Shown: piece after piece, positions 7,093 to 34,857 of the stretch
How the letters are laid out: every line of letters starts with the position of its first letter
Position numbering within the stretch: the stretch's first letter is position 1
Source of the DNA: a virus
DNA length: 49,580 bases
IMG/VR virus record: IMGVR_UViG_3300021354_000002
Coordinates: 1-49,580 of that record
Direction: 5' to 3' (one strand)
Notes under the pieces: generated by a model
Told to the model about the DNA's origin: nothing
What the model saw: the letters and a program-made list of their open reading frames with translations, nothing else
Databases searched by the model: none
Position numbers and translations under genes: made by a program

Positions 7093-7429
7093 ATCTGGTA
7101 TCAATCCAGTAGGCTGGCGAGTGCTTGTTAAGCCCCAAGAGGTTAAGAAGGTCTCCAAAGGAGGCATCATCTTGACTACTGAGGTAAGCGAAGCACGGGA
7201 ACAAATGGGTAACACCACAGGCATAGTCATAGCTATGGGAGACCAATGCTATTCAGATGAACCTACTGCGTGGTGTAAGGTTGGTGATAAGGTCATCTTT
7301 GCCAAGTATGCAGGCTTGCTTTACTTGGGTAAGGATGGACAGAATTACCGCATGATCAACGACAAGGACATCACAGGCACTCTTGATGCTGATGTAGACC
7401 TTGTTGATCCGTACCTAGCTAAACATTAA
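7082..7429 (+). CDS. GroES-like co-chaperonin
   Basis: A 115-residue protein of the Cpn10/GroES type. It shows WRVLVKP at 12-18, a mobile-loop-like KGGIILT near 26-32, GIVIAMGD, VGDKVIFAKYAG and YRMINDKDI, the usual order of GroES strands. GroES caps the GroEL folding chamber; phage T4 gp31 replaces host GroES so that the capsid protein can fold. Here the gene stands between portal and scaffold, which fits a capsid-folding role with host GroEL. An ATG nine bases upstream (7073) is in frame; 7082 has better ribosome site spacing. It overlaps the previous gene. Confidence 0.85.
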   Translation: MSNESGINPVGWRVLVKPQEVKKVSKGGIILTTEVSEAREQMGNTTGIVIAMGDQCYSDEPTAWCKVGDKVIFAKYAGLLYLGKDGQNYRMINDKDITGTLDADVDLVDPYLAKH

Positions 7430-11906: not shown

Positions 11907-11920
11907 GTAAGGAGTAGGAC

Positions 11921-12319
11921 ATGGCTAATGCCTTTGCCACTCAAATCATTGTTGATGGCCCTCGCAATGCTATTGTGAAGTTGACAGGTATCTTGGATAC
12001 CTCCAACCTCTCCAGTACCACTGCGATTGACCTTACTACCCTTACACAAGGTAGTACTCAGCTTAAGCCCAATGCTGTCTGCATTCACCACATTGACTAC
12101 TCTATTAGTGATCAATTGGAAGTGCAGTTGTCTTGGGACGCATCTACACCAGTTGTGATCATGCCCCTTGCGGGTCGTGGTCGATTGATGTTTAAAGACT
12201 TTGGTGGTCTTCAAAACAACTCTGGTGCAGGTAAGACAGGCAACATCACTATCCTCACTACAGGCTGGACTTCTGGTACTCAGATATTCTCTGTAGTGTT
12301 GGAGATGGTGAAGCAGTAA
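11921..12319 (+). CDS. Hypothetical virion protein
   Basis: A 132-residue protein beginning MANAFATQIIVDGPRNAIVK, predicted mostly beta, with a basic turn (MPLAGRGRLMFKDFGG) in the second half. Proteins of this type and size recur among structural genes of podoviruses without assigned function. AAGGAG precedes the ATG; its stop overlaps the start of the next gene (TAATGG). Confidence 0.6.
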   Translation: MANAFATQIIVDGPRNAIVKLTGILDTSNLSSTTAIDLTTLTQGSTQLKPNAVCIHHIDYSISDQLEVQLSWDASTPVVIMPLAGRGRLMFKDFGGLQNNSGAGKTGNITILTTGWTSGTQIFSVVLEMVKQ

Positions 12320-12639
12320 TGGCAGAATACTCTGCGGCTTCTGGTTCAGTAACCACTTCGGGGGACAATGTAATCTACACTCCCCCGAGTGGAAAGCAGC
12401 CACAGTTGTTCTACTACACCTTAAATGCAAGTGGGTCTAACACTGCTCCGGTAACTGTTACTCTCAGGTTTGCAAGTGGTACTGCTGTATGTACCTTGAG
12501 TTTGGTTCCCGGAGCTATCTTCTCTAGGAACATTGGAGCAGGTAAGTTCTGCCTACATGGTGTGCCTGATGACACACTCATTGTGAACTTAAGTGCTAAC
12601 CAGACAGTTAACTACTCGATTGAGTATTGGTATGTTTGA
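12319..12639 (+). CDS. Small beta-rich virion protein
   Basis: A 106-residue Ser/Thr-rich protein of short strands (QLFYYTLNASGSNTAPVTVT), likely a single beta sandwich. It overlaps the previous gene by one base, indicating coupled translation. Probably a minor virion or fibre-associated protein; no family recognised. Confidence 0.55.
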   Translation: MAEYSAASGSVTTSGDNVIYTPPSGKQPQLFYYTLNASGSNTAPVTVTLRFASGTAVCTLSLVPGAIFSRNIGAGKFCLHGVPDDTLIVNLSANQTVNYSIEYWYV

Positions 12640-12653
12640 TAAAGGTTGATGCC

Positions 12654-12824
12654 ATGATTGAGCTACAAGGTGAGAAAGCAGAGCTTAGATTTACTATAGA
12701 AATCACTCGTGCTGAGACAGGTAAGGTTGAGACCTTTGAAATGATTGGACACTCCGATCCAATTGAACTTGCAAAACTTTTAGGAGCCGAAGATGGCAGT
12801 AACACACTCGACAGCAGCACGTAA
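12654..12824 (+). CDS. Small hypothetical protein
   Basis: A 56-residue acidic protein, MIELQGEKAELRFTIEITRA then a Glu-rich C terminus. The start at 12654 follows AAAGG and lies 15 bases after the previous stop; a longer frame from 12627 overlaps the previous gene. Its 3' end overlaps the next gene by 32 bases. Function unknown. Confidence 0.55.
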   Translation: MIELQGEKAELRFTIEITRAETGKVETFEMIGHSDPIELAKLLGAEDGSNTLDSST

Positions 12825-13182
12825 TGCTGCAACTGATGCCGTAACAGCACTCATTGGTGCTAGTGGCAAGTTGGCATTTCGACTTACGGGTACTGTAGGT
12901 GCTCCGGGTACTGTGGTAGCTACTCTTAGCTTGTCTGCTACTGCCTTTGGTGCTTCTGCTACAGGTACGGCTACTGCCAATGCTATCACCTCTGATACGG
13001 CTGCTACTGGTAATGCATCTCCAGTAGCTACTGCTACATTGCAGACATCAGGTGGTACTGTGGTCATTCATTGTGCTGTTGCTGCTTCTGCTTCAGACAT
13101 CAATATGACCAATGGACTTACAGTAGCTTCAGGGGATACGGTGTCCTGCTCTTCCCTGACCTACACTGCACTAAGCGCATAA
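12793..13182 (+). CDS. Ala/Thr-rich virion protein
   Basis: A 129-residue low-complexity protein dominated by Ala, Thr, Ser and Val, with alternating small and hydrophobic residues as in beta-helical fibres. TAGGAG stands eight bases before the ATG. Part of the run of fibre-like genes; no specific homology recognised. Confidence 0.6.
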   Translation: MAVTHSTAARNAATDAVTALIGASGKLAFRLTGTVGAPGTVVATLSLSATAFGASATGTATANAITSDTAATGNASPVATATLQTSGGTVVIHCAVAASASDINMTNGLTVASGDTVSCSSLTYTALSA

Positions 13183-13191
13183 GGATAGTCC

Positions 13192-14490
13192 ATGACCAAC
13201 TTCGTTACTAATCCCGGTAGCGGTGGGTCTACCTTCGCTTCGGACACTATCACTGCTGTTGAGTACCCGCTGGCGAAGTCAGCTTGGGGCGCTGCTGGAG
13301 CAGTTAATCAAACCTCTGTTGCATCTCCACTGCCTGTGCAATCCATATCGGGTACAGACGTTAATACTACAGGTGCGATAACTACCTCATCAACAACCGT
13401 TGGCCCCGTGACAATGGGCGGGTTCTTTGGTGTAACGGTACAGGTTTCTGGAACCTATGCGGGTGTTAACTTTGGCTTTTGGGCGTCTAACGATGGCACA
13501 ACCTACTGGCCTGTTAATGCAACTCGTACTGACACTAGTGTTTCTGAAACTACTACAGGTGTCCTGACCGCTAACCAGACTCGCGCATGGGATGTGGACA
13601 TGGGTGGGGCAGCATACTTCAAGGTAATCTCTACAGCGTTCACTTCTGGTTCTGCTGCTATAAGCATCTTGCAGACCTACAACGAATCGGCTCCTACTGT
13701 TGCTGCTATTGCTCAAGGCCCATCTGCTTCGGGTACTGCATCACTAGGCAACCCTCTCTTGGTTGGTGGAAGCGATGGTACAAACACACGGTCTATTCTG
13801 GTAGATGCATCAGGTCGTGCCACTGTTGTGGGTGTAACAGGTACATCTTCTTTGTTTGTCCAAGGTGCTGCTGCATCTGCTGCATCTATCGCAGGTAATC
13901 CTATTCTGATGGGTGGTACGTTTACCACCACACAGCCTACGATTACTACGGGCCAAGCAGTCAACTTACAGACTACAAACCGTGGCTCCTTACTGGTGTC
14001 TCTTGCTTCTGTTGAAAACACAGCAACCAATGCTGGCTTCGTAAAGATCACTGACGGTACAACTGCTGTTCCTGTTACTGCTGCATCAACTGCTGCTGCG
14101 GCTAACCAAGCAGCATTAAACGTATCGCTATCACCCAACACAGGACTTGCTCCAACAACAAATGCTCTGTTCGCTTGCTCTACAGGTATTGCTGCGGCAT
14201 TAACTGTAGCGAATATCAAAGCATCTGCTGGCTCTGTCTATGGCATGTCTATTGCTAACCTGACCGCATCGACGGTCTACATTCAGTTCTACAACACAGC
14301 AGGTACTCCTACTCTCGGCACATCTGTTATTTGGTTTGTGGCTGTACCTGCGAGTGGAACATTGACGATTCCAGCAGGATCAATTGCTTTGGCTAACTTT
14401 GCAACTGGTATTGGCATTGGCGCTTCAACCACAGCAACTAGCACAGGTACCCCGGGTACTGCTCCTGCTGTAACCATCTTCTATAAGTAG
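13192..14490 (+). CDS. Large beta-rich virion/fibre protein
   Basis: A 432-residue protein rich in Thr, Ser, Ala and Gly. Residues 70-110 contain FGFWASNDGTTYWPVNATRT, like the beta-sandwich repeats of phage fibre proteins. A middle part has two short related stretches (GNPLLVGGSDGTNTRSILVD and GNPILMGGTFTTTQP). The C-terminal 110 residues resemble a separate globular beta domain. A surface role is inferred from composition and neighbours. Confidence 0.6.
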   Translation: MTNFVTNPGSGGSTFASDTITAVEYPLAKSAWGAAGAVNQTSVASPLPVQSISGTDVNTTGAITTSSTTVGPVTMGGFFGVTVQVSGTYAGVNFGFWASNDGTTYWPVNATRTDTSVSETTTGVLTANQTRAWDVDMGGAAYFKVISTAFTSGSAAISILQTYNESAPTVAAIAQGPSASGTASLGNPLLVGGSDGTNTRSILVDASGRATVVGVTGTSSLFVQGAAASAASIAGNPILMGGTFTTTQPTITTGQAVNLQTTNRGSLLVSLASVENTATNAGFVKITDGTTAVPVTAASTAAAANQAALNVSLSPNTGLAPTTNALFACSTGIAAALTVANIKASAGSVYGMSIANLTASTVYIQFYNTAGTPTLGTSVIWFVAVPASGTLTIPAGSIALANFATGIGIGASTTATSTGTPGTAPAVTIFYK

Positions 14491-14491
14491 C

Positions 14492-14566
14492 ATGAACACC
14501 GCAAGCTACTTTTGGTTCATATACCTCATGCTGGTGGGAGCAGCGGTATCTAAATTCTTGGGGTAA
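14492..14566 (+). CDS. 24-residue single-pass membrane peptide
   Basis: A tiny frame, MNTASYFWFIYLMLVG then AAVSKFLG, fitting exactly between two virion genes: it starts one base after the previous stop and ends three bases before the next ATG. The product is one membrane helix with a short charged end. Tight packing argues that it is real. A toxin-like, lysis-regulating or membrane-targeting role is possible but unsupported. Confidence 0.5.
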   Translation: MNTASYFWFIYLMLVGAAVSKFLG

Positions 14567-14569
14567 ACA

Positions 14570-16105
14570 ATGCCCACCATCATTGGCTCACCAGTAGCCA
14601 ACAAATCTGCAAGTGGGAACCTAACCCTCAGTAAGACGCTTACTGCTGGTAGCACGTTAATACTTGCTATTGCAGAGAATGATGGAACCGGAACCTCTAC
14701 TTGTCTACCAACCATATCAGGTGGTGGAGGTACTTGGACACAGGTAGTTGCGGCTAGTCTTGTAGCATTCCATACCCGTGCTTCCATCTGGAGAATGGAT
14801 GGAGCAACTGCTGGTGCAGCAACCATTACTGTTACCCCAAATGCCGGGGCTGATTCACTTGCAGCAGGATTAACTGAGTGGGCTGCACTTGCAGCAGTAG
14901 ACAAGACTGCAACAGGGGGTGCATTCAGTACCACACCTACAGCAGGGCCGACAGCGGCGACTACAACAGCGAGTGAAGTAGTCATTGCTGCTTGGGCTAA
15001 TGATGGTTCTGTAGCTGGAGCGACTGTACCTGCTACGGGATATACAAACATAGCCAACCAAGTAAATGCAATTGGTGGGCTGGTAGCAGATTATTTGATA
15101 GTCAGTAGTACAGGAACGCAGACAGCCAACTGGGGAACGCAAACTACAGGCGACCAGTGGACTTCTGCCATAGCGACATTCGCTGATGCTCCTGTACTTG
15201 GTAACAGCGATGGATGGCCTGTTGGAGGCTTTGTTGCAGTCGGTAGGTTGCTTGCTAGTAGCGGAGCAGTCACACATGCCACATCAGGAGTACTTACTGG
15301 ACAACTAGGCACTGTAGCTGGATCCGCAACTCGCTTCCATGCTTTCTCCGCTTCCGGGGTTCTAACTGGACAGATAGGCTCCATAGTCGGTTCTGCTGCA
15401 AGGTCAAGCAGTTCAGTTACCCATGACGGCACAGGAGCACTAGTAGGCTCTATAGGTTCTATAGCAGGTTCTAGTACCCGCTTTAGAGCAATGGCTACGT
15501 CAGGTGCTCTTACGGGGCAAGGCTCTACGATAGTAGGGTCTGCTGTCTATAACGCAGTACATCCTACTTCTGGAAACCTGATTGGTTCTGGTGCAGTTGT
15601 TACTAGTAACGCCACTAGGTTCCATGCGTTTGGGACAAGTGGCGTATTAACTGGTCAAGGGGCAGTAGTTGTTGGCTCTGCTAATCGTGGTACTGGCCCT
15701 GTAACCCACGACACAACAGGAACATTAGTTGGCCCCGGATCATCAATAGTAGGTTCTGCTAACCGTGTTCATGTCTTTGACTCTACAGGTGCTCTAGTAG
15801 GTCAGTTAGGAGCAATAGCTGGGTCTGCTACTAGGTTCCATTCTTTTAGTACAACAGGAGCATTGACAGGACAAAGCTCTTCTATAGTAGGTGTTGCTCT
15901 ACGGTTTAGAGTACATCCTAGTACGGGTGCTTTGATAGGTGCTGCTTCTACAATAGTGGGTGCTGCATCAAGGTCTGGAACTGGGCCTACCTATCCTTCT
16001 CCCGGAGATGTTCGCCTTGGAGTTACCTATGGCCCTACAGGGGCAGACTTTACAGGGACATTGGTAGTTGGTTCTGCCTATCAGGTTTTTATGCTTTCTG
16101 AATAA
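14570..16105 (+). CDS. Fibre-like protein with ten 23-28-residue tandem repeats
   Basis: A 511-residue protein. Residues 1-230 form a beta-rich domain. From about 238 to 477 come ten units on the pattern SGxLTGQxxxIVGSAxRFHxF, each probably one or two turns of a fibre shaft. The C terminus (DVRLGVTYGPTGADFTGTL) resembles a fibre foot. In unit 5 the usual VGSA is replaced by VTSNA, one residue longer, exactly where a copy of the dispersed palindrome lies (15599-15610). Likely a tail or capsid fibre. Confidence 0.65.
   Translation: MPTIIGSPVANKSASGNLTLSKTLTAGSTLILAIAENDGTGTSTCLPTISGGGGTWTQVVAASLVAFHTRASIWRMDGATAGAATITVTPNAGADSLAAGLTEWAALAAVDKTATGGAFSTTPTAGPTAATTTASEVVIAAWANDGSVAGATVPATGYTNIANQVNAIGGLVADYLIVSSTGTQTANWGTQTTGDQWTSAIATFADAPVLGNSDGWPVGGFVAVGRLLASSGAVTHATSGVLTGQLGTVAGSATRFHAFSASGVLTGQIGSIVGSAARSSSSVTHDGTGALVGSIGSIAGSSTRFRAMATSGALTGQGSTIVGSAVYNAVHPTSGNLIGSGAVVTSNATRFHAFGTSGVLTGQGAVVVGSANRGTGPVTHDTTGTLVGPGSSIVGSANRVHVFDSTGALVGQLGAIAGSATRFHSFSTTGALTGQSSSIVGVALRFRVHPSTGALIGAASTIVGAASRSGTGPTYPSPGDVRLGVTYGPTGADFTGTLVVGSAYQVFMLSE
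15599..15610. repeat. Dispersed palindrome GTTACTAGTAAC, exact copy
   Basis: Lies in the fifth tandem repeat of the fibre-like gene, read as Val-Thr-Ser-Asn; the other units lack it. Confidence 0.95.
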
Positions 16106-21922: not shown

Positions 21923-22317
21923 CCATGCATCAATTCGGGGAAGATGATAGTGACTTTGCTCCTCTTGCTGACAGCTTCAATGACCGCAGGAAGGATTCTC
22001 CTATGCCAGTATTACTTGAGTTAGTACGGCAGGTACATGAGTCCCAAAAGAATTTGGACAAGCGTCTTACTAGACACATGACAGATGAGACCAATGAGTT
22101 GGCTCTAGCAGTCTCTAAGTTGATGAGAGAAGCTTTCCCTGAAGGTGATCCTGAAGGACATCGTAGACACCACGAGCTTGTTATCAAGCAAGCTGAAGAG
22201 AAGGCAAAGTTCTGGCAAGAGATGAGAGTTGCTGGAGCTAAGTGGTTAGGCTTGGGTGTTCTTACTTTCTTAGCTGGTGCAGCTTGGACTGCATTTTTGA
22301 ATGGGCCACACAAATGA
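21919..22317 (+). CDS. Tail-anchored membrane protein, holin-like
   Basis: A 132-residue protein with a charged, helical body and one C-terminal membrane helix (about 107-127, LGLGVLTFLAGAAWTAFL). The segment FPEGDPEGHRRHHELVIK is seen in many phage proteins of this form, sometimes called holins without proof. A separate, better holin candidate is at 35882-36397, so this call is kept general. Coupled to both neighbours by overlaps. Confidence 0.65.
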   Translation: MTMHQFGEDDSDFAPLADSFNDRRKDSPMPVLLELVRQVHESQKNLDKRLTRHMTDETNELALAVSKLMREAFPEGDPEGHRRHHELVIKQAEEKAKFWQEMRVAGAKWLGLGVLTFLAGAAWTAFLNGPHK

Positions 22318-23078
22318 GCAGCACTTACACCGTCACTAGAGATCAGGTTATTGCTTTAGCTCTGCGTAAGCTTGGTGTTCTTGAACTAGGAGACACACCA
22401 GATGCTAATAGCATTGCCAATGCAAACATGTCTCTTAACTTGCTTATCAAGCAGTTCAGTACCGAAGGGTTAAAGCTTTGGAAGAATGCAGAGCTACGCA
22501 TTCCTCTTGTTGGTTCTAACAACTACTATGTGTTAGGTGGTTCCAACAGTGCTTTGATGTACGACACTACTCAACCTAGTACGGCGGTTACTGATAAGCC
22601 TTTGAAGATTCTTCAAGCTTGGTATCGCAACATCTCTGTGGCTCCTAACATAGACACTCCCATCCAGTTGCTCTCCAAGCAAGAGTACAACATCTTGGGA
22701 TCGAAGTTCTCTACTGGTACTGCCAATAGCATCTTCTATGATGTGAAGGCTCTCAACGGTATCTTGTATATCTACTTGTCTCCAGACACATATTCTTTAG
22801 CTAACCTTGAGTTGCATGTTGTAGCTCAGATGCCTTTGAATGACATGTTGTTGTCTACTGACATCCCTGACTTCCCTAACGAGTGGATGAACACTCTCAT
22901 ATGGAACTTGGCAGATCAGTTGGCAATTGAGTACGGTGTTCCTATGAACTACCGTAATGAAATTATGACTAGAGCCAAGGTGTACAAGGATCAAATGAAT
23001 GATTGGGATGTGGATGCCTATAGCACTAACTTCCAACCTGACTATCGAAGCATGATCCCCAACTCTTATGCAAGGTAA
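22314..23078 (+). CDS. P22 gp4-like tail adaptor / DNA stabilisation protein
   Basis: A 254-residue protein starting MSSTYTVTRDQVIALALRKL and continuing with the helical start and beta-rich body typical of P22 gp4 and related head-completion adaptors, which close the portal after packaging. The frame is open upstream to 22242, but the ATG at 22314, overlapping the previous stop by four bases, fits the family start. The following gene is gp10-like, the usual pair. Confidence 0.8.
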   Translation: MSSTYTVTRDQVIALALRKLGVLELGDTPDANSIANANMSLNLLIKQFSTEGLKLWKNAELRIPLVGSNNYYVLGGSNSALMYDTTQPSTAVTDKPLKILQAWYRNISVAPNIDTPIQLLSKQEYNILGSKFSTGTANSIFYDVKALNGILYIYLSPDTYSLANLELHVVAQMPLNDMLLSTDIPDFPNEWMNTLIWNLADQLAIEYGVPMNYRNEIMTRAKVYKDQMNDWDVDAYSTNFQPDYRSMIPNSYAR

Positions 23079-23080
23079 TC

Positions 23081-24547
23081 ATGCCAGTAGAACGTATCAG
23101 ACTAGCTGAAGAGATTGAGACCCGTGATGGAACCTTAGGGAAGGACTCACGGACGGTCAATGCTGTCTTTGAAAAGAATGGTGCTTCTCTAGACTTTGTT
23201 AAAAGACCCGGCTTGGCTTATCAGCTTCAAGTAACTCCGGTAACTCCTCCTACTCCGTTACTCAGTCAAGGCTTGTTTAACTTTAACAACAACCTTATTG
23301 CTGTTATTAGTAACACCATCTACAACATCAACAGTGGTACGTTTGCAGTGACCACTGTAGGCTCTACCTCTGCAAGTACTTCTAACACCTATGCAGTCAA
23401 GGGGTTGTTAGACGTCAATCTGTTCTTTCATAACAAGGTCAATGCATATGTATTGACTAATGCTTTGGTACTCAACAGCAGTCTTACTAACATGCCTGCT
23501 GGCCCTTATGTACCGGGGGTAGTGTACCTAGACAATTTCTATTTCATAGCTACTGCTTCTGATAACCGTATCTATAGCTCCAACTATGGCGATCCAACTA
23601 CTTGGAATGCCTTGGCTTACATTGTCTTCAATCAGACTAACGATACCTTAGTGGGAATTACAAAGCATTTGAATTACTTGGTAGCCTTTGGTAAGGCTAG
23701 TACCCAGTTCTTCTATGATGCTGGTACAGGCACTAGCACAGTGACTCCTCTTGGAGTAGCTCAGAGCTATACGATGGAAACAGGTTGTGCTACTGCTGAT
23801 AGCATTGTCTCTACGGACAATACAGTGCTCTGGATAGGGGCTACAAGGACTCATGGCAGGTCTGTCTACCTCATGGATGGGGTATCTCCTCGCAAGGTCT
23901 CTACAGCCTCTATAGACAAGGTTCTAGAAGCTGATGGCTTGAGTAAAGTAACTTCCTTTGGGTACAAGTTCTATGGGCATTCCTTGTATGTTCTTACATT
24001 GCACTCTAGTAACTTGACTATTGTGTATGACTTAGACACACAGACTTGGACACAATGGACTCAATACGCTATAGCCTCTAGTGATCAAGCCAATGCAGGG
24101 CAGTGGGTAGAGTCTTACTTCCGTGGCAACTACTATGCAGAAGCTAATAACATCCCTTACGTCTTGGATGATGACACTGCCAGTATCTATTACTTCAGCA
24201 ATACAACCTATCAAGACAACGGGCAACCTATCTACTGTAGGTCTGTTACGGGCATCAGGGACAATGGGACTACTCACCGTAAGTTCTATGGTCGCTTAGA
24301 AGTTGTTGGGGATAAAGTCCCCGGTGGTATCTTGCAAGCTAGGCATTCAGGTGATGACTATCAAACGTGGTCTAGCTATCGTCAAGTAGACCTCTCTGCT
24401 TCTAGACCTCAGTTGTATCTAGGTGGCGCTGATCGTCGTAGAGCTTGGGACTTCTTGTGTACTAGCAACACTCCTCTTCGTTTAGAAGGTGTTGAGATTG
24501 ATTTCAGACTAGGTGAGTTGGATCAAGCTCAAGGACAAGGAGCCTAG
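23081..24547 (+). CDS. P22 gp10-like packaged DNA stabilisation (tail hub) protein
   Basis: A 488-residue protein matching the P22 gp10 pattern: an N-terminal RxxxGxxxKRPGLAYQL strand set, a beta-propeller-like body (NFNNNLIAVISNTIYNINSG, LDNFYFIATASDNRIYSS), and a C-terminal part with GADRRRAWDFLCTSNTPLRL. In P22 this forms a hexameric hub under gp4. It starts two bases after the gp4-like gene. One-mismatch palindrome (GTTATTAGTAAC) at 23303. Confidence 0.85.
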   Translation: MPVERIRLAEEIETRDGTLGKDSRTVNAVFEKNGASLDFVKRPGLAYQLQVTPVTPPTPLLSQGLFNFNNNLIAVISNTIYNINSGTFAVTTVGSTSASTSNTYAVKGLLDVNLFFHNKVNAYVLTNALVLNSSLTNMPAGPYVPGVVYLDNFYFIATASDNRIYSSNYGDPTTWNALAYIVFNQTNDTLVGITKHLNYLVAFGKASTQFFYDAGTGTSTVTPLGVAQSYTMETGCATADSIVSTDNTVLWIGATRTHGRSVYLMDGVSPRKVSTASIDKVLEADGLSKVTSFGYKFYGHSLYVLTLHSSNLTIVYDLDTQTWTQWTQYAIASSDQANAGQWVESYFRGNYYAEANNIPYVLDDDTASIYYFSNTTYQDNGQPIYCRSVTGIRDNGTTHRKFYGRLEVVGDKVPGGILQARHSGDDYQTWSSYRQVDLSASRPQLYLGGADRRRAWDFLCTSNTPLRLEGVEIDFRLGELDQAQGQGA

Positions 24548-24548
24548 T

Positions 24549-25457
24549 ATGACCACAGACTTGATTGTTGATGCTATCAATACTGTAGCAACCAAAGATG
24601 GGTTTGATCTTAGGACTACGGAAAGTAAGCTCTCTTTAGCCTCCGTTCTTTTAGAGCATCCTCAGACACCTAACTCTGTCATACACCGCTTTGGTGGTGG
24701 CTTATATATACGAGAAGCACATTACCCAGCAAAGACATTGGTTGTAGGTATGGAGCATGTTTCTGAACATATGAATGTGCTCCTTAAAGGGAGTATCAAT
24801 GTTATTGATGGAGACGGTTCTACTCAGACACTAGTGGCTCCACATATGTTTGTGGCTAAAGCAGGCAGCAAAGTAGGGTACTGTCTAGAGGATGTGGTGT
24901 GGCAAAACATCTATGTTACTAGTAGCACGGATGTAGAATACCTAGAGTCTACTCTGTTTGTTGTCCCTGAGATTCTTACTGAACACCAAGCCAAACAACT
25001 AGCTATAGAAACTGCTTTGCATGAAGATGACCGCAAGGACTTTATTCTGGCTATAGAGCAGGCTGGCTGGAGTGTTGATGAGGTTGAGCTAGTATCCAAG
25101 TATCGTGGAGACTGCATACCTTTTCCAGAAGGAAGTTATAGCATCACTACTGGAGACTCCCCAATACAAGGTAAAGGTATCTTTGCTACTGCTGCAATAG
25201 CTGTTGGAAGCCTCATTGCTCCCATGCGTATCAATGGGTATAGGACTCCTGCTGGATACCGAACTAACCACTCAAAGACTCCCAATGCTGTAGCAGTCCT
25301 AACTGCTTCAGAAGATATGTTACTAGTAGCATCTCGTGATATTCACGGGATGGTTGGAGGAGACTTAGGAGAAGAGATCACTCTCGACTACCGACAAGTC
25401 ATGCTCTTAAATAAGCTTTGGAAGGATAAAAAATCATGTCTGCTGGAATCTCATTAG
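24549..25457 (+). CDS. Cupin-SET domain fusion protein
   Basis: A 302-residue protein with two parts. Residues about 45-135 look like a cupin (GGLYIREAHYPAKTLVVGME, HMNVLLKGSINVIDGDG, PHMFVAKAGSKVGYC), with EHVSEHMN supplying His residues for a possible metal site. Residues about 196-283 carry the SET lysine methyltransferase motifs in order: GKGIFATAAIAVGSLI, then NHSKTPNA at 240-247, then GEEITLDYRQ at 274-283. SET proteins use S-adenosylmethionine to methylate lysines. It lies among tail and ejection genes and overlaps the next gene by 22 bases. Target unknown. Methylation of a virion or host protein is inference. Two one-mismatch palindromes lie in it (24915, 25319). Confidence 0.75.
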   Translation: MTTDLIVDAINTVATKDGFDLRTTESKLSLASVLLEHPQTPNSVIHRFGGGLYIREAHYPAKTLVVGMEHVSEHMNVLLKGSINVIDGDGSTQTLVAPHMFVAKAGSKVGYCLEDVVWQNIYVTSSTDVEYLESTLFVVPEILTEHQAKQLAIETALHEDDRKDFILAIEQAGWSVDEVELVSKYRGDCIPFPEGSYSITTGDSPIQGKGIFATAAIAVGSLIAPMRINGYRTPAGYRTNHSKTPNAVAVLTASEDMLLVASRDIHGMVGGDLGEEITLDYRQVMLLNKLWKDKKSCLLESH

Positions 25458-26113
25458 GAACTGTCGCCTCTGTAGTGGGTATTGCTGGTGGTCTCAACTC
25501 CATGGGTGTTTTTGGGGGTGGTGGTGGAGGTGGGGGTAGTAGCAGTAGGCCCTCTAGTGGTCAAGCACAGACTGCTGTAGACCCCTTTGCTTCTCATCGA
25601 GGAGCTATGGGGGATCAATATGCTGCAATGATGGCTCCCGGAGCTAAGACTGACCCTACCCAAATGCCGGGGTACTCTCAATGGATGAGTGGTGTTCTCA
25701 ATCCCGCTATGGAAGCTTCTCAAGGCAAGCTTGCTGCTGCTGGTATGTCTGGTAGTGGGGCAGAGAAGCAAGAGCTACAAAAGGTCGGTCAACAAGGTTA
25801 CTATGGCTTTATGACCGACTACATGAATCGTTTAGCTACGGGTAGTGGTGCTACCCAAAACCCTGCTGCTGGTGGACAGGCAATGATAGGCCAAGGTAAT
25901 CAAGGCTTCTCGGACTTCAATGCGGGTCTTGGTGGTGTTGCTACGGGTCTTAATGGACTGTTTGGTAGTGGTAGCTCTGGTGGTGGTATGGGAGGTTATG
26001 GGTACAACAGTGCTCAAACAGTTAATGCTACAGGAAACCTAAGCAACAACGATGGTGGATGGGGTGGAGGCAGTGGTGGTTGGGGTACTGGCCCCGGCTC
26101 TAATGCCCAATAA
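25436..26113 (+). CDS. Gly-rich internal virion protein
   Basis: A 225-residue protein with an N-terminal hydrophobic segment (ISLGTVASVVGIAGGLNSMG), a run of eight Gly, a helical middle (YSQWMSGVLNPAMEASQGKL) and a Gly/Asn/Ser-rich tail. Ejection proteins of short-tailed phages often have this mix. It is the first of three genes before the giant polyvalent protein, an arrangement like the P22 and T7 internal proteins. Call by place and composition. Confidence 0.6.
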   Translation: MSAGISLGTVASVVGIAGGLNSMGVFGGGGGGGGSSSRPSSGQAQTAVDPFASHRGAMGDQYAAMMAPGAKTDPTQMPGYSQWMSGVLNPAMEASQGKLAAAGMSGSGAEKQELQKVGQQGYYGFMTDYMNRLATGSGATQNPAAGGQAMIGQGNQGFSDFNAGLGGVATGLNGLFGSGSSGGGMGGYGYNSAQTVNATGNLSNNDGGWGGGSGGWGTGPGSNAQ

Positions 26114-26124
26114 AGGAACACCAT

Positions 26125-27630
26125 ATGGCTAATGCAATGCAAGACATGGCATCCGGTAGTGATGCTGTACTACAACTCCAACGTAATGTTGCTGCTGCTC
26201 CTGATGTTCAACAACATCAGAAGAACATCATGCAGGAGGAGGCTCTCAAGATAGACCAAGAGAAGGCTACCTTGGGTAAGACGGTGATGGAGAATACCAT
26301 CCGTCAGACTGAGTTCCAAGCTAATCAAGAAGCTATCCAAAAGATGCAACAGCTTGCAGGAACTCCTGAGTACAAGAATGCTAAGGACTTTGAACAAGCA
26401 AAGCAAATCTCTGCGTTGTTTGCAAACATGGGTAAGCCTGTAGAAGCTGAAGCTGCTATGACCCGTGCAGAAGCTTTACAGACATCTTCTTACTTGAATG
26501 ACATCAAACAGTACGATGCTCAATCTCGTGCTATCCAGAGTGCTGCTTCCGTCATTGAGAACATGCTTCCTGACAAGGTTAAAGATGCTGTAGAAGCTCT
26601 TCCTCCTCCTGCTAAGAAGGCACTCATAGACAGCATTGGGGCTGTCAACTATGCCAACATGAATGGAGCACAAGTTCAAAAGGCTGCTTCTGAACTGATG
26701 TGGTCTACCTCTGGCAAGCTTGGAGAGATGGCAATTCAAGCTAAACAGTTAATTGCTACTGAGCGATTAGCAGAAATACAAGCACGCATACTCTCCGAAG
26801 AACGAATCTCTATTGCTAGGATAGCTGCTGGTAGTGCAAGGGCTGCTGGTAAAGAAGAGTCTCGTGCTGAGAAGACATGGAAGGACTATCGAGGAGAAGT
26901 TGTAAGTCTTGATAAAGACTTCTTAGCTGCTGAAAAGGAACGTGAGACAGAGATCAAGATTGCCAAGGAAGCTGCTGCTGCTAGTGCTCCGGGGCCTATC
27001 TCTCGTGCCTTTGGTGTCAAAGAAACTCCTGCTCAAAAGGAATACGCTGCTCTTGTTCAAGATCGTTTAGACAAGCAGAAACAGTACTGGGATGAGAAGA
27101 GGGTCTTGGCTCAACACTCTGGAGACAAGGAAGAGATTGCTCGGGTAGAAGCTGCTTATGCAAAGACCTTCCCCAAGGAAACTCCTTCTCCTGCTGCTGA
27201 AGAGACTCCTAAGCCTGATGCCAAGCCTAGTGCTGCTACTCCTTCTCAAGTTGCTCCTAGTGCCAATGTTCCTAGTAACAAACCTGCTAGTGGGCAACAG
27301 GCTGCTCCTCCAGAAGCAGTTCAACAATTGATGGCAGACCCTTCAGAAAAGAACAAAAAGTTCTTTAAAGAAACATTTGGGTATTTACCTGACATGCCTT
27401 CTTCTACTCCTAAACAAAAGTCTCGTGGCGAACTCCTTCAAGAGAAGGTAGCTGCTGATAGGGCTGCTGCTGTGAAGAAGGAAGAAGCTCGTGTTGCTTC
27501 TGAAGCTGCTCGTCTTAAAAAAGAGGAAGCAGACAAAGCAGAAGAAGAGCGTAAAAAGAAAGCTAGAGGTGCAGCTACACTTCAGTCTATCTATGGGGCA
27601 AAAAGTCGATTGAACGACATGGTTCGTTAA
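26125..27630 (+). CDS. Internal virion / DNA ejection protein
   Basis: A 501-residue protein that is nearly all helical, with long Ala/Glu/Lys/Gln coiled coils at about 30-120 and 440-490, a Pro/Ala-rich linker at about 350-400, and few hydrophobic stretches. It sits between the Gly-rich protein and the giant protein and probably forms part of the ejectosome that carries DNA across the envelope. No enzymatic motif was seen. One-mismatch palindrome at 27268. Confidence 0.65.
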   Translation: MANAMQDMASGSDAVLQLQRNVAAAPDVQQHQKNIMQEEALKIDQEKATLGKTVMENTIRQTEFQANQEAIQKMQQLAGTPEYKNAKDFEQAKQISALFANMGKPVEAEAAMTRAEALQTSSYLNDIKQYDAQSRAIQSAASVIENMLPDKVKDAVEALPPPAKKALIDSIGAVNYANMNGAQVQKAASELMWSTSGKLGEMAIQAKQLIATERLAEIQARILSEERISIARIAAGSARAAGKEESRAEKTWKDYRGEVVSLDKDFLAAEKERETEIKIAKEAAAASAPGPISRAFGVKETPAQKEYAALVQDRLDKQKQYWDEKRVLAQHSGDKEEIARVEAAYAKTFPKETPSPAAEETPKPDAKPSAATPSQVAPSANVPSNKPASGQQAAPPEAVQQLMADPSEKNKKFFKETFGYLPDMPSSTPKQKSRGELLQEKVAADRAAAVKKEEARVASEAARLKKEEADKAEEERKKKARGAATLQSIYGAKSRLNDMVR

Positions 27631-27640
27631 GGAGTAGTGC

Positions 27641-30600
27641 ATGGCTGAAGAAGTCAATCCGTTTGCCAAGTACGTTACTCCTGCATCTTCTGCTCCTTCC
27701 AATGGAGAAGAAAACCCATTTGCTAAGTACAAGAAGTCTAGTGGCTCATCTGGTGAGCCTGACCGTGTTAGCTCTCAATCTCTAGGTGATCTAGTTACTG
27801 GCAAACAGGGTGGACAAGATAAGGGTAAGCTTGCTGCTGCCGGGTATGGTGCTGCTTCTAATGTGGCTCCCGGTTTAGCTGGACTTGCTACAGGTGCGGC
27901 TGCTGCTGAAGTAGTGTCTCCTATTGCTGCTGCTTCTCTAGCTATTCCCGGCATAGGCCCTTTCGTAGCTGGTGGTATTGAGTTATTGGCTTTTGGTGGA
28001 GGAGCTATTGGAGGCTCTGAAGCTGCTTCTAAGATTCAATCTAGGCTCTGGTCTCTTGTTGATCCAGAAGGATTTGCTAATGCTCAGAAGACTATGCAAG
28101 CACACGAAGGTTATGCCACTGCTGGTAGCATAGCTGGTGGTGCTGCTGGACTATCTCCTAAAGTTGCTATAGACAAGACTGCTAAGTGGATCAATACAGC
28201 CATGAAAGCTAGGGCTGCTTCTGCTGCTACTCAGGCTGGTGTATCTGCTGGTTCTCAATTGGCGACTACTGGAGAGATTGATCTTAAAGAAGTAGGCATT
28301 GCTGCTGCTACTGGTGCTGTTCTTCCCGGTACTAATCGCTTAGGCAAGCCTTTTCATGCTGCTGGTACTGCTGTAGGAGGTGCTATTGCTAAACCTTTTA
28401 CCAAAGATGCTACTAGTAACATTGATCCAACTAAACCTCCTGAAGGTGCTACTCCTGAACAGAAAGCCAAGTGGTTAGAAGAGGTCAAGAAGAATGAAGA
28501 AGTAAAGAACTCTAAAGCCAAGTTGGTAGAGACTGCTATCCGGGAGAAAGCTAACCCAAGGAACATTGAAAGGATGGGGCCTAAGCACGATGAAGCACGT
28601 AAGCTTGAGACCGCCGATACGCACGAACAAGGGTTCATTGATGAGCGTGGTAACTTCCTTACTCGCAAGGAAGCTTTCAAGAGGGCTAAGAACACTGGAC
28701 AGGTACCTGAAGATCATGTCTTAGAGCAGCCTAAAGAGGGGTTGCATAGTGGTGACTTGCGTAAGGCTGGTGTCAAGGAGTTTGAAATCTCTACAGAGAA
28801 ACCTGCTGGTGTTTCTACTACAGACAAGCCGCCTGTATCTCGGGATGACTTTAAAGGGCACATACGAGAAGTCTCGGCTCGTATTGAAAGTTTGAATATT
28901 CAAAAGACTGAAGCAGAACTTGCTGGCAAGCATGATGAAGCTGCCGCGCATGAAGCAGAGTTACAGAAGGCCCAACAAGAGCACGATGCTTTAGAAAAGC
29001 ATATGCCAGAGGTTGAGTTTAAAAACAAAGAAAAACCTACTTGGCAAGAACTACATGATCATCTCTGGAACGCCAAGAATGTAGGAGAAGCTTTTGATCG
29101 TATTGCTAAAGCAGACATAGGTTCTCCGGGACAGAAAGCTTTAATTAAAGCTCTTACTCGTTCAAAGTTTATTCGTAGTGCCGATCTAGATTTACAGAAT
29201 AAAAAGATTGGATATCACGATGAAAACAATGTTTGGAAAGAAGATGCTTCTGGTCTTTACACTGGCAACAAAGAACATAAACTAAGCTTAGGAGAAGGAG
29301 GCAATTTACAAGTCTTTATGCATGAAGGGATTCATGCTGGAACTCACGCTCTTATAAACTCTGGAAAAAGCAATGCTGCTATAGCTCTTAAGCGATTGCT
29401 GGCCTTACACAAGTCTGATTTAGGTTTAAAAGCAGATGAGGCTATGGCTACTTACAAACAGAAGTACCCCAATGTCACTATTGGGGAACAAAAGATTTAT
29501 AGAGAGTACTTAGAGTACGGGATTAAAAATGAACACGAGTTCATTGCAGAAGCTTTTACCAATAAAGAGTTTCAGCAACTACTAAGTAAGCTTCCTTCAG
29601 ACATGAATAAGCCTGCTTCTAAGCTTCTTAATGTGTGGGAAGAGTTTAAAAAACTTGTTGCTGATGGCTTGGGGATCAAGGATAGAACTGCTTTGGATGA
29701 TGTCTTGGAACAAGGAACCAAGATGATTGAGGCATCTCGTAATCGTGTTCCTAGTAACAAACCTGTCTCAACAATCAGCACTCCTAAACAAGCTTCTTCT
29801 GTTGCCAGTAGATTTTCAGAGGAGCTACATGACTTGTTGGAAAGAAATGGTATTGCTGTAGCGCACAGTAGCCCACATAAGTTTGGAGCATTTAACTGGA
29901 TTAAACATGCTCTATCTGGTGAGGGAAACATGGCTTTTGGTGCGGGGACTTATTTTTCTCGGGGGGATGGTACTAACAAGAGCTACCAAATGATGTCTAA
30001 AGACATAGTTGGTGAAAAGTACATGCTCGATCATCCTGAAATAGCTCAGAAAATGATAGACCTGACTACAGAGACAGACTACTTAGATAAAAAAATAGAA
30101 AAAGTACAAGTCAAGATTGATGACTTAAAAAGAGACTACCTCTTAGATGAACTCAAGTTCAATGCTCAAGACGAGTATGAGTCTTGGGAGATGATGCAGC
30201 ACCCCAATCTTTTAGAGGGGAAAACTGCTAGTGAGTTGCATGACTTATATGACAAGCACATCATAGGGGCTAGAAAAACATTAGAACAATATGAGAGCAA
30301 GATTGCGGATCAGAAATCAGATTTAATTCTAGAGCGAGCTTCTCTTGAAGCAGAACAAAAGCTCATACAAGATGAGCGACGAGCTATAGATGAAGCCATG
30401 TTTAAGGAAACAAAAGTTCCAACATACCACTCTACTATTGAGGCTCATCCTGACGAGCTTTTAGATTGGAACTCCAACAAACAATCTAATTTAATCAAAG
30501 AGGCTTTTGAAACTCTAGGCGTATCTCCTGTTGCTCGTGCGGTAAAGATAACTGCTTTACACATGAGAGAGTTGGAGAAACAGCTTGTTGCTTCTGGTGG

Positions 30601-33523
30601 ACACATACAAAGTGTTGATGTTGCTAGGGGTAAGTACGGTATATATGCTCAGAAACAACCAGATGGTAGCTACATAGGTTTTGTGCGGGAAGAAGAAGAA
30701 GCTGTAGCTATAACAAAAGACATAAAAGCTTCCTCTCTAAAAGAGTTACAGAACGAGTTTCAAAAAGCTTTTGCGGAAACTCCAAAGACAGGGGTTGAGT
30801 TGTACCGGGAACTGTCTCAGATATTGAAGCCTACTTTTGAAGAGGCTGAGATCGAGTATCGGAAATTATTTCCTGATGAAAAGAATCCTACTTCAAGACA
30901 AATTGGAAAGATGCAGGAGCACATCGGAGACACTAGAACATCTATTGCTCTCGCAGAGCAGGGTGTTGTGGGGCAAGTGCATAATGCCAATTGGGGTCGT
31001 GAAGAACAGTTTCGAAACTACGTAGTGTTTGATGACACTCGTGTCAAACAAAACTTTGTAGAGCTTGCTTCTAAGGGGGAGCCTATTCTCCCTGACGCTG
31101 CCGAAGCAGAAAAGTTTACCAAGGACACTTCTCCTGAAGTAGCAGAAGCTATCAAGAACATAGATGTCCGTACCATACCTAACAAAGCATCTTTTATAGA
31201 ACATGCAACAGAGTTATTTCACACCTATGGTGAAGAGACTACTCTCAAGTTCTTTGATGACTATGCTACCGAGTTAAAGAAGCGTTCTATCCCTATCCCT
31301 ACGGATCATCAAGGCTTGGATGATGCTTTCCACAAGATGACTACGTGGGAACAGGCTGATACTTCTGAGCATGTTATAGGTTATGGAGAGACTGCTACGG
31401 ATGGATTGGGTAAGCGTCCTTCTATGTTGCATCCTATTGAACGTAAGGCTTGGGACAAGAAGGCTAAGGCTCAACTAGTCAACATCAATGCTGAACGTGA
31501 GACTGCTTTCTTTGCTCGGGAACATGGCAAAGATGTTGGAGGGCATCTAGGCGAAGTCCTTAAGGCCATTGACTCTGAGAATGAAGCTCTGATCAAGAAG
31601 ATTACTGCTATGGGTGGGGATGTTGGTCAAGAGTTTGGTAGTGGTCAGTCTCGTTACCGTATTCAAGGTGGTGTTACTAGTAACTTTAAAAACATGGTTT
31701 CGGAGTTGTTTGCTAACCGTATGCCCTTCTCGGAGAAGGTGGCAGAACAAACCCATGCTGCTAAAGAACGTAGTGTGTTCCAGATGGATGATGGTCGTGT
31801 AGTTGAACTACATAAGCATCCTGAAGATGGGCAATTTAGATACCAAGATGAACGAGGTAAGTGGCAGATACGCAATGTTCATAAGGGTACGGAGATTTGG
31901 GAATGGAAGAATGGTTCTAAGGAACGTATAGGCTTTACCGAAGACCCCAATTTCAAACTAGGTGATTCTATAGAGATCAAAGATAGGACTACCAAAGAGA
32001 AGAAGTCTCTTACGCTTGTTGATGGCAAGGTAGATGCTATCGAAGAACATTCTCCTTACCGTTACTTGCATGATGCCGAAGCTTCTGCTCGTATGTCTAA
32101 CATGGGCCTACGTAAGATGGCTCGTGAGTTGGAGTTGCTCAACAACCTCAAGGAATCTAAACTGTTTGAGAAGGTAGGGTTCTCCCCGGAGAAGTCTCTT
32201 AAGGACTTGCCTAAAGGCTGGGTTGTTCCTGACAGCTTGGATAAGATACCTCAACTACGTGGTTGGCATTTTGATCCCAAGACTGCTGCAATCATTGAGG
32301 ACTTTGCTAAGGTGTGGGACAACGGCATGTGGATGAAGCTGAGTAATCAGATCGTTAAGAACATGATGTTGAACCCTCTTCCTCACATGTTCAATGAGGT
32401 TATGCACTTGTATAACGCTCGTGGATTTACAGGGTGGGTTAACCCCATATCCTTCGCAAGGTTCGTAAAGACTGGCTCTCTTGCTATGAAAGATGTAGCA
32501 GAGCAGACTCTGTTTTATCGTGATGTCATGCGTGAAGGAGGTTCTATCTTAGGGGCTTCTCCTCGTAATGGATTGTTCGATAAGATGATTATCGAAGCTG
32601 GTAAGCAGTTGGTAGATGACAAGCAGTTGTCTCGTGGTATGGGTTTGCTTGCCAAGAAGCTAGGGACTACCGTGGGTGGTCTCTATAACGGCTTGTCTCG
32701 TGCTTCTCAGAAAGCTATGTGGGTGTCTCGTGATGTGATGTACATGCAGTACATCCGTGAGATACAGAAGTTGCATCCCGAGATGGACTTGAAGAGTGTC
32801 ATTGCTAAAGCAGAGACACACATGCCAAACTATCGTATGCCTTCAGAGGTGTTAGGTAGTCGTGGTCTGTCCAAGGCTCTTAAGAACCCTAACATCTCGA
32901 TGTTCTCCCGCTACCACTACGGCATGGTGAAGTCTCTTGTCAACACTGTGAAGGACATCAACCCTGCTAACTTAAAGTCTGCTGAAGGTCGTGAGCACTT
33001 TAGGGATGGTGTGGACTCTATCTTGGCTATTGGTGTTGCTATGGCTGTCTTGTACCCGTTGATGGATGAGATGGCACAGGCAGTGTTTGGTGAGGGTGCA
33101 GAGCAACGTAGGGCTGGCCCTTACCACTTGATCAAGGCTGGTGCTGATGTTGCTTCTGGTGAGAAGGATGTCAGTGCTCTTATCTGGCCCGTGTTCACTT
33201 TCAACCCGGTACTGTTAACTCTCGGAGAGTTGATGTTCAACAAGAACATCTTCTCAGGTAAAGAAATTTACCATCCACATGATAAGCTCACTGATAAACT
33301 TGGTGATGCTGCCAAGTTTGCTGGTAAACAGATTCCTCAAGGCCCTGCTGTGATGGGTGCTGTTGCTGGTGATACTGACGCTAACATGTCTACCTTGGCT
33401 AAACAGTTTGACATCAAGGCTAAGACTCCTGCTCAGAGAGCTAAGGAGCGTACTGCTAGGAAGCGTGAGTTGGCTATGGACAAGGCTAGACAAACTAGAA
33501 GGGATAAGGGTACTTACCCATGA
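27641..33523 (+). CDS. 1960-residue polyvalent internal virion protein (zincin + ADP-ribosyltransferase-like)
   Basis: A giant multi-domain protein expected inside the virion and injected with the DNA. A Gly/Ala-rich hydrophobic segment lies near residues 65-130. HEGIH at 561-565 is an HExxH zinc peptidase motif, followed by EHEFIAEAFTNKEF near 630 as a third-ligand candidate. AHSSPHKFGAFN near 741 and GAGTYFSR near 768 match the ADP-ribosyltransferase domains of polyvalent proteins. Coiled coils follow, and the C-terminal 500 residues (NPLPHMFNEVMHLYNARGF) match conserved ends of such proteins. ATGG start after AAGGAG. Catalytic activity is inferred from motifs only. The stretch around 29950-31150 is more AT-rich than the rest, suggesting later acquisition. 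Confidence 0.85.
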   Translation: MAEEVNPFAKYVTPASSAPSNGEENPFAKYKKSSGSSGEPDRVSSQSLGDLVTGKQGGQDKGKLAAAGYGAASNVAPGLAGLATGAAAAEVVSPIAAASLAIPGIGPFVAGGIELLAFGGGAIGGSEAASKIQSRLWSLVDPEGFANAQKTMQAHEGYATAGSIAGGAAGLSPKVAIDKTAKWINTAMKARAASAATQAGVSAGSQLATTGEIDLKEVGIAAATGAVLPGTNRLGKPFHAAGTAVGGAIAKPFTKDATSNIDPTKPPEGATPEQKAKWLEEVKKNEEVKNSKAKLVETAIREKANPRNIERMGPKHDEARKLETADTHEQGFIDERGNFLTRKEAFKRAKNTGQVPEDHVLEQPKEGLHSGDLRKAGVKEFEISTEKPAGVSTTDKPPVSRDDFKGHIREVSARIESLNIQKTEAELAGKHDEAAAHEAELQKAQQEHDALEKHMPEVEFKNKEKPTWQELHDHLWNAKNVGEAFDRIAKADIGSPGQKALIKALTRSKFIRSADLDLQNKKIGYHDENNVWKEDASGLYTGNKEHKLSLGEGGNLQVFMHEGIHAGTHALINSGKSNAAIALKRLLALHKSDLGLKADEAMATYKQKYPNVTIGEQKIYREYLEYGIKNEHEFIAEAFTNKEFQQLLSKLPSDMNKPASKLLNVWEEFKKLVADGLGIKDRTALDDVLEQGTKMIEASRNRVPSNKPVSTISTPKQASSVASRFSEELHDLLERNGIAVAHSSPHKFGAFNWIKHALSGEGNMAFGAGTYFSRGDGTNKSYQMMSKDIVGEKYMLDHPEIAQKMIDLTTETDYLDKKIEKVQVKIDDLKRDYLLDELKFNAQDEYESWEMMQHPNLLEGKTASELHDLYDKHIIGARKTLEQYESKIADQKSDLILERASLEAEQKLIQDERRAIDEAMFKETKVPTYHSTIEAHPDELLDWNSNKQSNLIKEAFETLGVSPVARAVKITALHMRELEKQLVASGGHIQSVDVARGKYGIYAQKQPDGSYIGFVREEEEAVAITKDIKASSLKELQNEFQKAFAETPKTGVELYRELSQILKPTFEEAEIEYRKLFPDEKNPTSRQIGKMQEHIGDTRTSIALAEQGVVGQVHNANWGREEQFRNYVVFDDTRVKQNFVELASKGEPILPDAAEAEKFTKDTSPEVAEAIKNIDVRTIPNKASFIEHATELFHTYGEETTLKFFDDYATELKKRSIPIPTDHQGLDDAFHKMTTWEQADTSEHVIGYGETATDGLGKRPSMLHPIERKAWDKKAKAQLVNINAERETAFFAREHGKDVGGHLGEVLKAIDSENEALIKKITAMGGDVGQEFGSGQSRYRIQGGVTSNFKNMVSELFANRMPFSEKVAEQTHAAKERSVFQMDDGRVVELHKHPEDGQFRYQDERGKWQIRNVHKGTEIWEWKNGSKERIGFTEDPNFKLGDSIEIKDRTTKEKKSLTLVDGKVDAIEEHSPYRYLHDAEASARMSNMGLRKMARELELLNNLKESKLFEKVGFSPEKSLKDLPKGWVVPDSLDKIPQLRGWHFDPKTAAIIEDFAKVWDNGMWMKLSNQIVKNMMLNPLPHMFNEVMHLYNARGFTGWVNPISFARFVKTGSLAMKDVAEQTLFYRDVMREGGSILGASPRNGLFDKMIIEAGKQLVDDKQLSRGMGLLAKKLGTTVGGLYNGLSRASQKAMWVSRDVMYMQYIREIQKLHPEMDLKSVIAKAETHMPNYRMPSEVLGSRGLSKALKNPNISMFSRYHYGMVKSLVNTVKDINPANLKSAEGREHFRDGVDSILAIGVAMAVLYPLMDEMAQAVFGEGAEQRRAGPYHLIKAGADVASGEKDVSALIWPVFTFNPVLLTLGELMFNKNIFSGKEIYHPHDKLTDKLGDAAKFAGKQIPQGPAVMGAVAGDTDANMSTLAKQFDIKAKTPAQRAKERTARKRELAMDKARQTRRDKGTYP
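31673..31684. repeat. Dispersed palindrome GTTACTAGTAAC, exact copy
   Basis: In the polyvalent protein gene, read GVTSNF. One-mismatch copies lie in the same gene at 28409 and 29747. Confidence 0.95.
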
Positions 33524-34857
33524 ACCTATTGATCATAGATTGTGGAAGTGTCTCATTGGACTTTGCTCTTCGATGCAAAGCCTTTGGGCATACCGTGCGT
33601 GTGTATATACGTAACCATCCTGACGGTACTCGTTCTCAGGTTGGTGATGGTGGTTTGATAGATCGTGTTCCCCATTGGGAACCCCACATGAACTGGGCTG
33701 ATCTCATCTTCTGCACTGACAACGTGTACTACATACACCAGTTGGAACGGTACAGGGATCAAGGCTATCCAATCATAGGGCCTAGTGTAGATACGAATAG
33801 ATGGGAGCAGGATAGACAACATGGTGCTGATGTATTTGAGAAAGCAGGCATCCCGACTATCTCCTCAGTCGAGTTCTCTAGCTACGATGAAGCTATCTCA
33901 TTTGTTATTAAGAACAATAAGCGGTATGTCTCCAAGCCTCTAGGGGATGGTGACAAGGCTCTTAGTTATGTCTCCAAGAGTCCTGCTGATATGGTCTTCA
34001 TGCTACAGAAGTGGAAGAAGACTAATGCCTACAAAGGTGCTTTTATTCTCCAAGAGTTTCATGGTGGCTTAGAGATTGCTGTTGGTGGTTGGTTTGGTAA
34101 GGGTGGTTTCTCTAAGCACTTCTGTATCAACCACGAGTTCAAGAAGCTGCTTGCTGGTGATCTTGGTGTGTCTACTGGAGAAGAAGGCACTATTCTTTAC
34201 TATGAGCAAGAGTCTTTGCTTGCTGACAAGGTTCTTAAACCACTTGAAGGGATGCTACATGGGCTTGGCTACACTGGGTATATTGATGTTAATTGTATTG
34301 TGGACGATAAGGGATTTCCTTGGCCTCTAGAGTTCACTATGCGTCCGGGATGGCCCTTGTTTATGATCCAACAGGCTCTACACAAAGGCGATCCTTGTCA
34401 GTTCATGTTGGACTTGTTAGAAGGTAAAGATACCTTACGTGTATCTGACAAGATAGCTTGTGGTGTAGTGATCTCTATGCCTCCGTACCCGCACAACAAG
34501 GGTACTCCTCAAGATGAACATGCTGGCTATCCCATGTTTGACTTGACTATGGAAGATGTTACTAAGAACGTTCATCTAGCTTTTGTTAAGTGCGGTGTTG
34601 CTCCTGCTATGGTTAATGGTAAGGTAAAGCTAAAGCATGAGCAGTTTGTTACTGCTGGGAACTACGTCTGTATTGTCACTGGTGTTGGTGATTGTGTTGA
34701 AGATGCTCGTGAAGACTGCTATGACCGCATCAAGAAGAAGATCAACATCCCGAATAGCTTAGGCTATCGGATTGACATTGGATGTAGATTAGAGGAACAA
34801 TTGCCTAAGCTCAAAGCTATGGGGTACACAGACAAGGAGTATTGCGATGGCGAATAA
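33520..34857 (+). CDS. PurD-like ATP-grasp enzyme
   Basis: A 445-residue protein resembling phosphoribosylamine-glycine ligase. It has an N-terminal nucleotide-fold start (MNLLIIDCGSVSLDFAL), the PurD-type DVFEKAGIPTISSVEFSSYDEA, a lysine strand RYVSKPLGDGDKA, ILQEFHGGLEIAVGGWF, and the metal-binding strand PLEFTMRPGWP. The family joins a carboxylate to an amine using ATP. Substrate-site residues differ from true PurD, so it may act on another substrate, perhaps a peptide or cell-wall precursor. It overlaps the polyvalent gene by four bases (ATGA), suggesting linked expression. Confidence 0.8.
   Translation: MNLLIIDCGSVSLDFALRCKAFGHTVRVYIRNHPDGTRSQVGDGGLIDRVPHWEPHMNWADLIFCTDNVYYIHQLERYRDQGYPIIGPSVDTNRWEQDRQHGADVFEKAGIPTISSVEFSSYDEAISFVIKNNKRYVSKPLGDGDKALSYVSKSPADMVFMLQKWKKTNAYKGAFILQEFHGGLEIAVGGWFGKGGFSKHFCINHEFKKLLAGDLGVSTGEEGTILYYEQESLLADKVLKPLEGMLHGLGYTGYIDVNCIVDDKGFPWPLEFTMRPGWPLFMIQQALHKGDPCQFMLDLLEGKDTLRVSDKIACGVVISMPPYPHNKGTPQDEHAGYPMFDLTMEDVTKNVHLAFVKCGVAPAMVNGKVKLKHEQFVTAGNYVCIVTGVGDCVEDAREDCYDRIKKKINIPNSLGYRIDIGCRLEEQLPKLKAMGYTDKEYCDGE

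Follow-up and report, generated by a model that had tools for sequence, protein, structure and literature searches.

Most of what is known of SET enzymes concerns chromatin and histone methylation. The vSET protein of PBCV-1 (A612L; PDB 1n3j, 3kma) is a small viral SET protein that has its active-site motifs in common with the phage SET domain described here, and it is packaged in the PBCV-1 virion (PMC7019647). Two motifs, RFINHxCxPN and ELxFDY, define SET domains, and both build the SET active site (PMC3980110). In phages, the existing SET names are automatic labels only: for example, the protein UOF81456 was labelled 'pbcV-1 histone H3-lys 27 methyltransferase structure', and in BFVD some proteins of uncultured Caudovirales are entered as 'SET domain containing protein'. 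A literature search that covered few subscription journals found nothing on a phage SET protein, on its fusion with a cupin or on the locus; where a crAss paper and a review of tails mention 'SET domain', the term refers to immunoglobulin C2-set or I-set domains or is the plain word. SET labels on phage members were already known, and what appears new is a compact SET domain fused to a structural-locus cupin and joined or lost more than once.

The window analysed here is a stretch of virus DNA of 49,580 nucleotides (IMG/VR record IMGVR_UViG_3300021354_000002) and belongs to a short-tailed phage. Its cupin-SET fusion gene (P0001) lies on the plus strand at 24549-25457 and encodes 302 amino acids, from an ATG at 24549 to a stop codon ending at 25457. 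A ribosome-binding site read from the sequence, AAGGAG (24537-24542, plus strand), is located 6 nt upstream of this ATG, which lies 1 nt past the stop of the gp10-like gene and agrees with the starts of the homologues. A GTG start at 24513 was dropped because the ribosome-binding site, the overlap with gp10 and the homologue starts all favour the ATG. The protein matched PHROG_34170, a family of unknown function, over residues 34-286 (1.7e-65). Its Pfam SET score of 21.4 bits was just below the curated cut-off of 22.4, and the SET assignment was therefore based on evidence beyond Pfam alone. Pfam SET was matched by 19 of the 19 aligned homologues (E<0.1; best 3.3e-8), and a stand-alone SET relative scored 40 bits. 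A chance resemblance was ruled out by the PHROG_34170 match together with the invariant motifs, profile matches and Foldseek SET matches given below. The SET assignment of the C-terminal part is firm. A plasmid search with the protein returned no match, and a scan of positions 22000-28000 for repeats and promoters found nothing relevant to the gene.

Three parts were delimited in the protein, all on the plus strand: a cupin-like domain (residues 34-140, 24648-24968), based on PHROG 12032/24280 matches, AlphaFold2 strands and Foldseek cupins; a helical linker (residues 141-189, 24969-25115), based on AlphaFold2 secondary structure; and a compact SET domain (residues 190-287, 25116-25409), based on Pfam, profile, AlphaFold2 and Foldseek evidence. 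The AlphaFold2 model of the full protein, built from an alignment of 22 sequences, had a pLDDT of 91.1, and its Foldseek search against PDB placed cupins on top (E 9e-6) and the MLL1 SET domain at 6.7e-5. When the SET part was modelled alone (pLDDT 92.5), only SET methyltransferases were found among the best 50 PDB matches listed, the top one listed being PBCV-1 vSET 3kma (E 1.2e-5, TM 0.61/0.62). The profile of the whole family matched MLL1 at 3e-7, and that of the SET part alone matched best to the MLL/KMT2 and EZH2 SET domains (MLL1 6e-8), with PBCV-1 vSET at 3.7e-5. Judged from the AlphaFold2 and Foldseek matches, the SET fold with its pseudo-knot is predicted in the SET part, and the model gives the N-terminal half a cupin superfamily fold (double-stranded beta-barrel). 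An earlier note on this DNA, made from the sequence alone, had proposed that SET motifs are joined to a cupin-like domain and that structure prediction should recover both folds; the gene proved to be a true fusion, and both the cupin and the SET fold were recovered.

Conservation was read from 34 non-redundant homologues, which were picked by similarity without a motif filter. A separate set of 93 proteins was chosen by motif regex, which makes it circular with respect to motif invariance, and the invariance was therefore taken from the unfiltered set of 34. The N-terminal GxG of the SET family is present in SPIQGKGIF (residues 204-212, 25158-25184, plus strand), a putative SAM-site motif in which S204, I206, G208 and G210 were invariant and which runs into GKGIFA at residues 208-213. 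The first pseudo-knot motif, NHSKTPN (residues 240-246, 25266-25286, plus strand; N240 and H241 invariant), is of the RFINHxCxPN type, with the family form [RY]x[TVI]NH[SA]xxPN and without the Cys of the eukaryotic motif. The second, GEEITLDY (residues 274-281, 25368-25391, plus strand; E276, T278, D280 and Y281 invariant), carries a catalytic-type Tyr and is of the ELxFDY type, with an aliphatic residue in place of Phe (family form E[ILV]T[LIV]DY). R232 and T233 were also invariant, and this R-T pair before NHS is kept in stand-alone phage SETs (RTPLGGFINHS). The NHS and GEE..DY residues, whose absence in homologues the earlier note would have held against a SET domain, were retained throughout the 34, and the lone exception to NHS was an NQS in one homologue outside this set (L080). 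The median dN/dS was lowest in the cupin (0.10), intermediate in the SET part (0.18; 604 pairs) and highest in the linker (0.25); the value for the SET part indicates purifying selection.

Compared with MLL1, the SET domain of the phage protein lacks about 35 residues, in the place where SET-I sits. About 10 residues separate the GxG block from NHS in the phage profile, compared with about 45 in MLL1, and by this comparison a SET-I insert of the MLL/EZH2 type is absent between the two motifs. In SET enzymes the lysine/substrate channel lies partly in the SET-I region, whose absence may change or abolish the binding of a substrate. The motifs suggest a preserved SAM side but a substrate side that is remodelled or reduced, and the latter is the chief doubt on catalysis.

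The cupin half matched phrog_12032 at 1.4e-21, and PHROG 24280 was also matched. These families, named 'short tail fiber / tail fiber adhesin', are homologous to the cupin half and occupy the same genome slot, but unlike the window protein their members lack a SET domain. No experimental basis was found for the adhesin name, and no proteomic record was found for the fusion or its cupin-only homologues, including in the X14 and P26218 papers. Among the cupin metal-ligand positions, H46 was invariant, H74 was present in 89 of 93 proteins and position 70 was His or Gln; no conserved His was found in the motif-2 region of the 34 homologues. A canonical metal-binding cupin (HxH...E plus the motif-2 His) was rejected, as the ligand set is not conserved, and the suggestion that the cupin senses or binds a small ligand likewise found no support.

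Upstream of the fusion gene lies the gene of a gp10-like head-closure (Hc3) protein (23081-24547, plus strand; phrog_578 4.5e-49, PF11134 1.3e-8). Downstream on the same strand follow a Gly-rich ejection-like protein, assigned by position (25436-26113; its start overlaps the end of the fusion gene by 22 nt), and two Lys-rich proteins recognized by position, conservation and composition: a putative ejection protein of 501 amino acids (26125-27630; 51 lysines) and a putative ejection or internal virion protein of 1960 amino acids (27641-33523; 183 lysines), which had only two short PHROG matches. The Gly-rich protein has 4 lysines. Its counterparts after distant homologues matched 'DNA ejection' families phrog_598/21132 at 1e-49 to 1e-98. 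Synteny was examined at 92 non-redundant fusion loci. An ejection-like gene stood directly 3' of the fusion in 78 of 83 testable loci, and in 66 of 88 loci gp10 lay upstream at a distance of at most 1.5 kb, which agrees with the earlier placing of the fusion within a structural operon beside gp10-like and ejection genes. At two loci (L049 and L116), gp10 upstream of the fusion was matched by three ORFs (241, 114 and 510 amino acids), as a split, duplicated or frameshifted gene.

The same slot is filled by cupin-only homologues in podoviruses of Vibrio, Shewanella, Thalassomonas and Dickeya and in Variovorax and Sphaerotilus phages, and those of Vibrio, Shewanella, Variovorax and Sphaerotilus phages precede ejection or gp14-type genes. 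They are also found there in T7-supergroup phages, for example SnaP-R1, with tail tubular B before the cupin-only gene and a T7 gp14 homologue (PF24072, 2e-23) after it. The slot between tail tubular B and gp14 is that of T7 gp13 (PF11090, probable scaffold); homology of the window protein to gp13 was rejected, the slot alone being in common, and there was no PF11090 match at E<=1.

Other genes of the window were also noted. An ATP-grasp protein like GARS/PurD (33520-34857, plus strand), whose gene closes the ejection operon, matched GARS_C at 1.7e-6 and GARS_A at 1e-5, both below the Pfam cut-offs, and had no PHROG match; its homologues occur there in 29 related loci. A phage GroES-like co-chaperonin (7073-7429, plus strand; Cpn10, 2e-14) lies between the portal and coat-like genes. 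Between the coat-like and tail genes (10731-16105, plus strand), three proteins of 391, 432 and 511 amino acids are lysine-poor (0.6-1.8%) and had no PHROG match. On the minus strand (46117-49048), a CobS-like ATPase (phrog_249 'porphyrin biosynthesis', 9e-73) adjoins a CobT-like protein (phrog_17276, 2e-47).

The fusion was found in 8 of 50,697 GenBank phage records, which represent 5 genomes and include two cultured phages, Rhodoferax phage P26218 and Pseudoalteromonas phage PH1 (ANY29560), and at no fewer than 395 loci in IMG/VR. The fusion is thus rare in GenBank phages and frequent in IMG/VR. SET proteins are uncommon among cultured phages, as had been stated before for phages in general, but common in viromes. 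All uncut unique SET-motif proteins listed in the IMG/VR survey were cupin fusions, and one more ends at a contig edge; the apparent unfused SETs in this survey merely had a variant cupin motif. A few bacterial MAG contigs carry the fusion, including a 368-kb Paraburkholderia contig on which ejection and internal-virion genes follow it and a primase-like gene, not gp10, lies upstream; this copy is probably a prophage. Furthermore, stand-alone compact SETs of about 100 amino acids, all annotated as hypothetical, occur in pelagiphage Kolga (L197, 2959-3267) and in cyanophages P-RSM6 (L269, 2995-3294) and P-SSM7 (L270, 2998-3297), and others at about 70 IMG/VR loci. Its neighbours are gp25 and a baseplate wedge gene in P-RSM6 and nrdAB in P-SSM7. 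Since the compact SET occurs alone in these three phages, the domain can stand without a cupin.

On the cupin tree, PH1 clusters with the cupin-only X14, BA3 and VvAW1 (support 100/99), and a single clade of all fusions was rejected (AU p = 0.0006). The SET domain therefore has a history of more than one gain, loss or exchange. The SET-domain tree set the solo SETs well apart (99/99), did not place PH1 and gave a branch of about 10 to one probably misaligned row (L004); it was given no weight in view of the PH1 placement and this row. We infer that the assembly/ejection slot was first occupied by the cupin and that SET was added to it.

Our preferred reading, to which we give somewhat less than an even chance as a whole, is that of a compact SAM-dependent SET methyltransferase, docked through its cupin at the portal/tail/ejection complex and methylating tail or ejection lysines at assembly. 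Its parts differ in strength. The SET domain probably binds SAM and is catalytic, the cupin is about equally likely to be a docking module or something else, and ejection or tail proteins as the substrate are plausible but slightly less likely than not. Anchored at this complex by its cupin half during particle assembly, the protein would use its SET half to methylate lysines of tail or ejection proteins. The likeliest targets would be the Lys-rich proteins of 501 and 1960 amino acids, two and three genes downstream, which are better candidates than the adjacent Gly-rich protein because of their lysine content. The SET fold and motifs, the purifying selection, the stand-alone SETs, the ejection-gene synteny and the cupin-only slot were counted for this reading; the missing SET-I (about 35 residues), the NQS homologue and the few lysines of the adjacent protein were counted against it. 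More tentatively, and with the balance rather against it, the fusions may form a virion-docked lysine methylation system of short-tailed phages, in which a compact SET became fused to the cupin of the head-tail/ejection locus on more than one occasion and methylation of ejection proteins would fine-tune how they pack, unfold or pass into the cell. Such a system would mean that phage assembly includes a SET enzyme that modifies proteins after translation.

The loss of SET-I and channel residues, as well as the NQS member, would also fit a SET domain that no longer methylates and is kept for its beta-rich fold, as a module for structure or binding that may still bind SAM. The beta-clip fold indeed takes in both SET and the capsid decoration protein gpD (PMC5344890). 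However, the invariant motifs are exactly those that build the SAM site and the active site, and a scaffold needs no GxG, NH or DY; we regard the loss of catalysis as unlikely. The altered pocket was also counted for a methyltransferase for another residue or a peptide terminus, whose compact pocket would admit a non-lysine side chain. SETD3, a known SET protein that methylates histidine (PMC8537074), provides a precedent, but it belongs to a different SET subfamily and nothing speaks positively for such a substrate here, which makes this reading very improbable.

The protein might instead act in the host, with the cupin anchoring it in the particle and the SET half entering the cell together with the ejection proteins, where it would methylate host proteins early in infection. 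This effector and the non-catalytic module are the main rivals of the preferred reading. The nearest solved SET fold among the matches listed is vSET, which is packaged and trimethylates H3K27 (PMC7019647), the fusion gene adjoins ejection genes, and related stand-alone SETs, one of them by nrdAB in P-SSM7, could have host targets. Packaging of the cupin-SET protein is unsupported, however, and the fused form is tied to the assembly locus, whereas a host effector needs no fusion partner from a structural locus; such a role seems quite unlikely. With a SET fusion that is conserved and recurs in the ejection loci of many podoviruses from the environment, lysine methylation of phage proteins would become open to direct testing, as the fusion is present in two cultured phages (Rhodoferax P26218 and Pseudoalteromonas PH1). 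The compact SET, found also alone in pelagiphages and cyanophages, would reveal a minimal SET fold sufficient for catalysis, and the true role of a widespread cupin protein now labelled as a tail fibre comes into question.

Among the known systems nearest to it, PHROG_34170 and GenBank proteins including Rhodoferax phage P26218 gp30 and UOF81456 have the same full-length fusion as the window protein. The MLL/KMT2 and EZH2 domains have a full SET-I and flanks and belong to multi-subunit chromatin enzymes, whereas the phage domain is the shorter, compact form. Finally, vSET is a stand-alone protein of an algal virus with chromatin targets, whereas the phage SET is fused to a cupin and occurs in phages of bacteria, which have no histone substrate.
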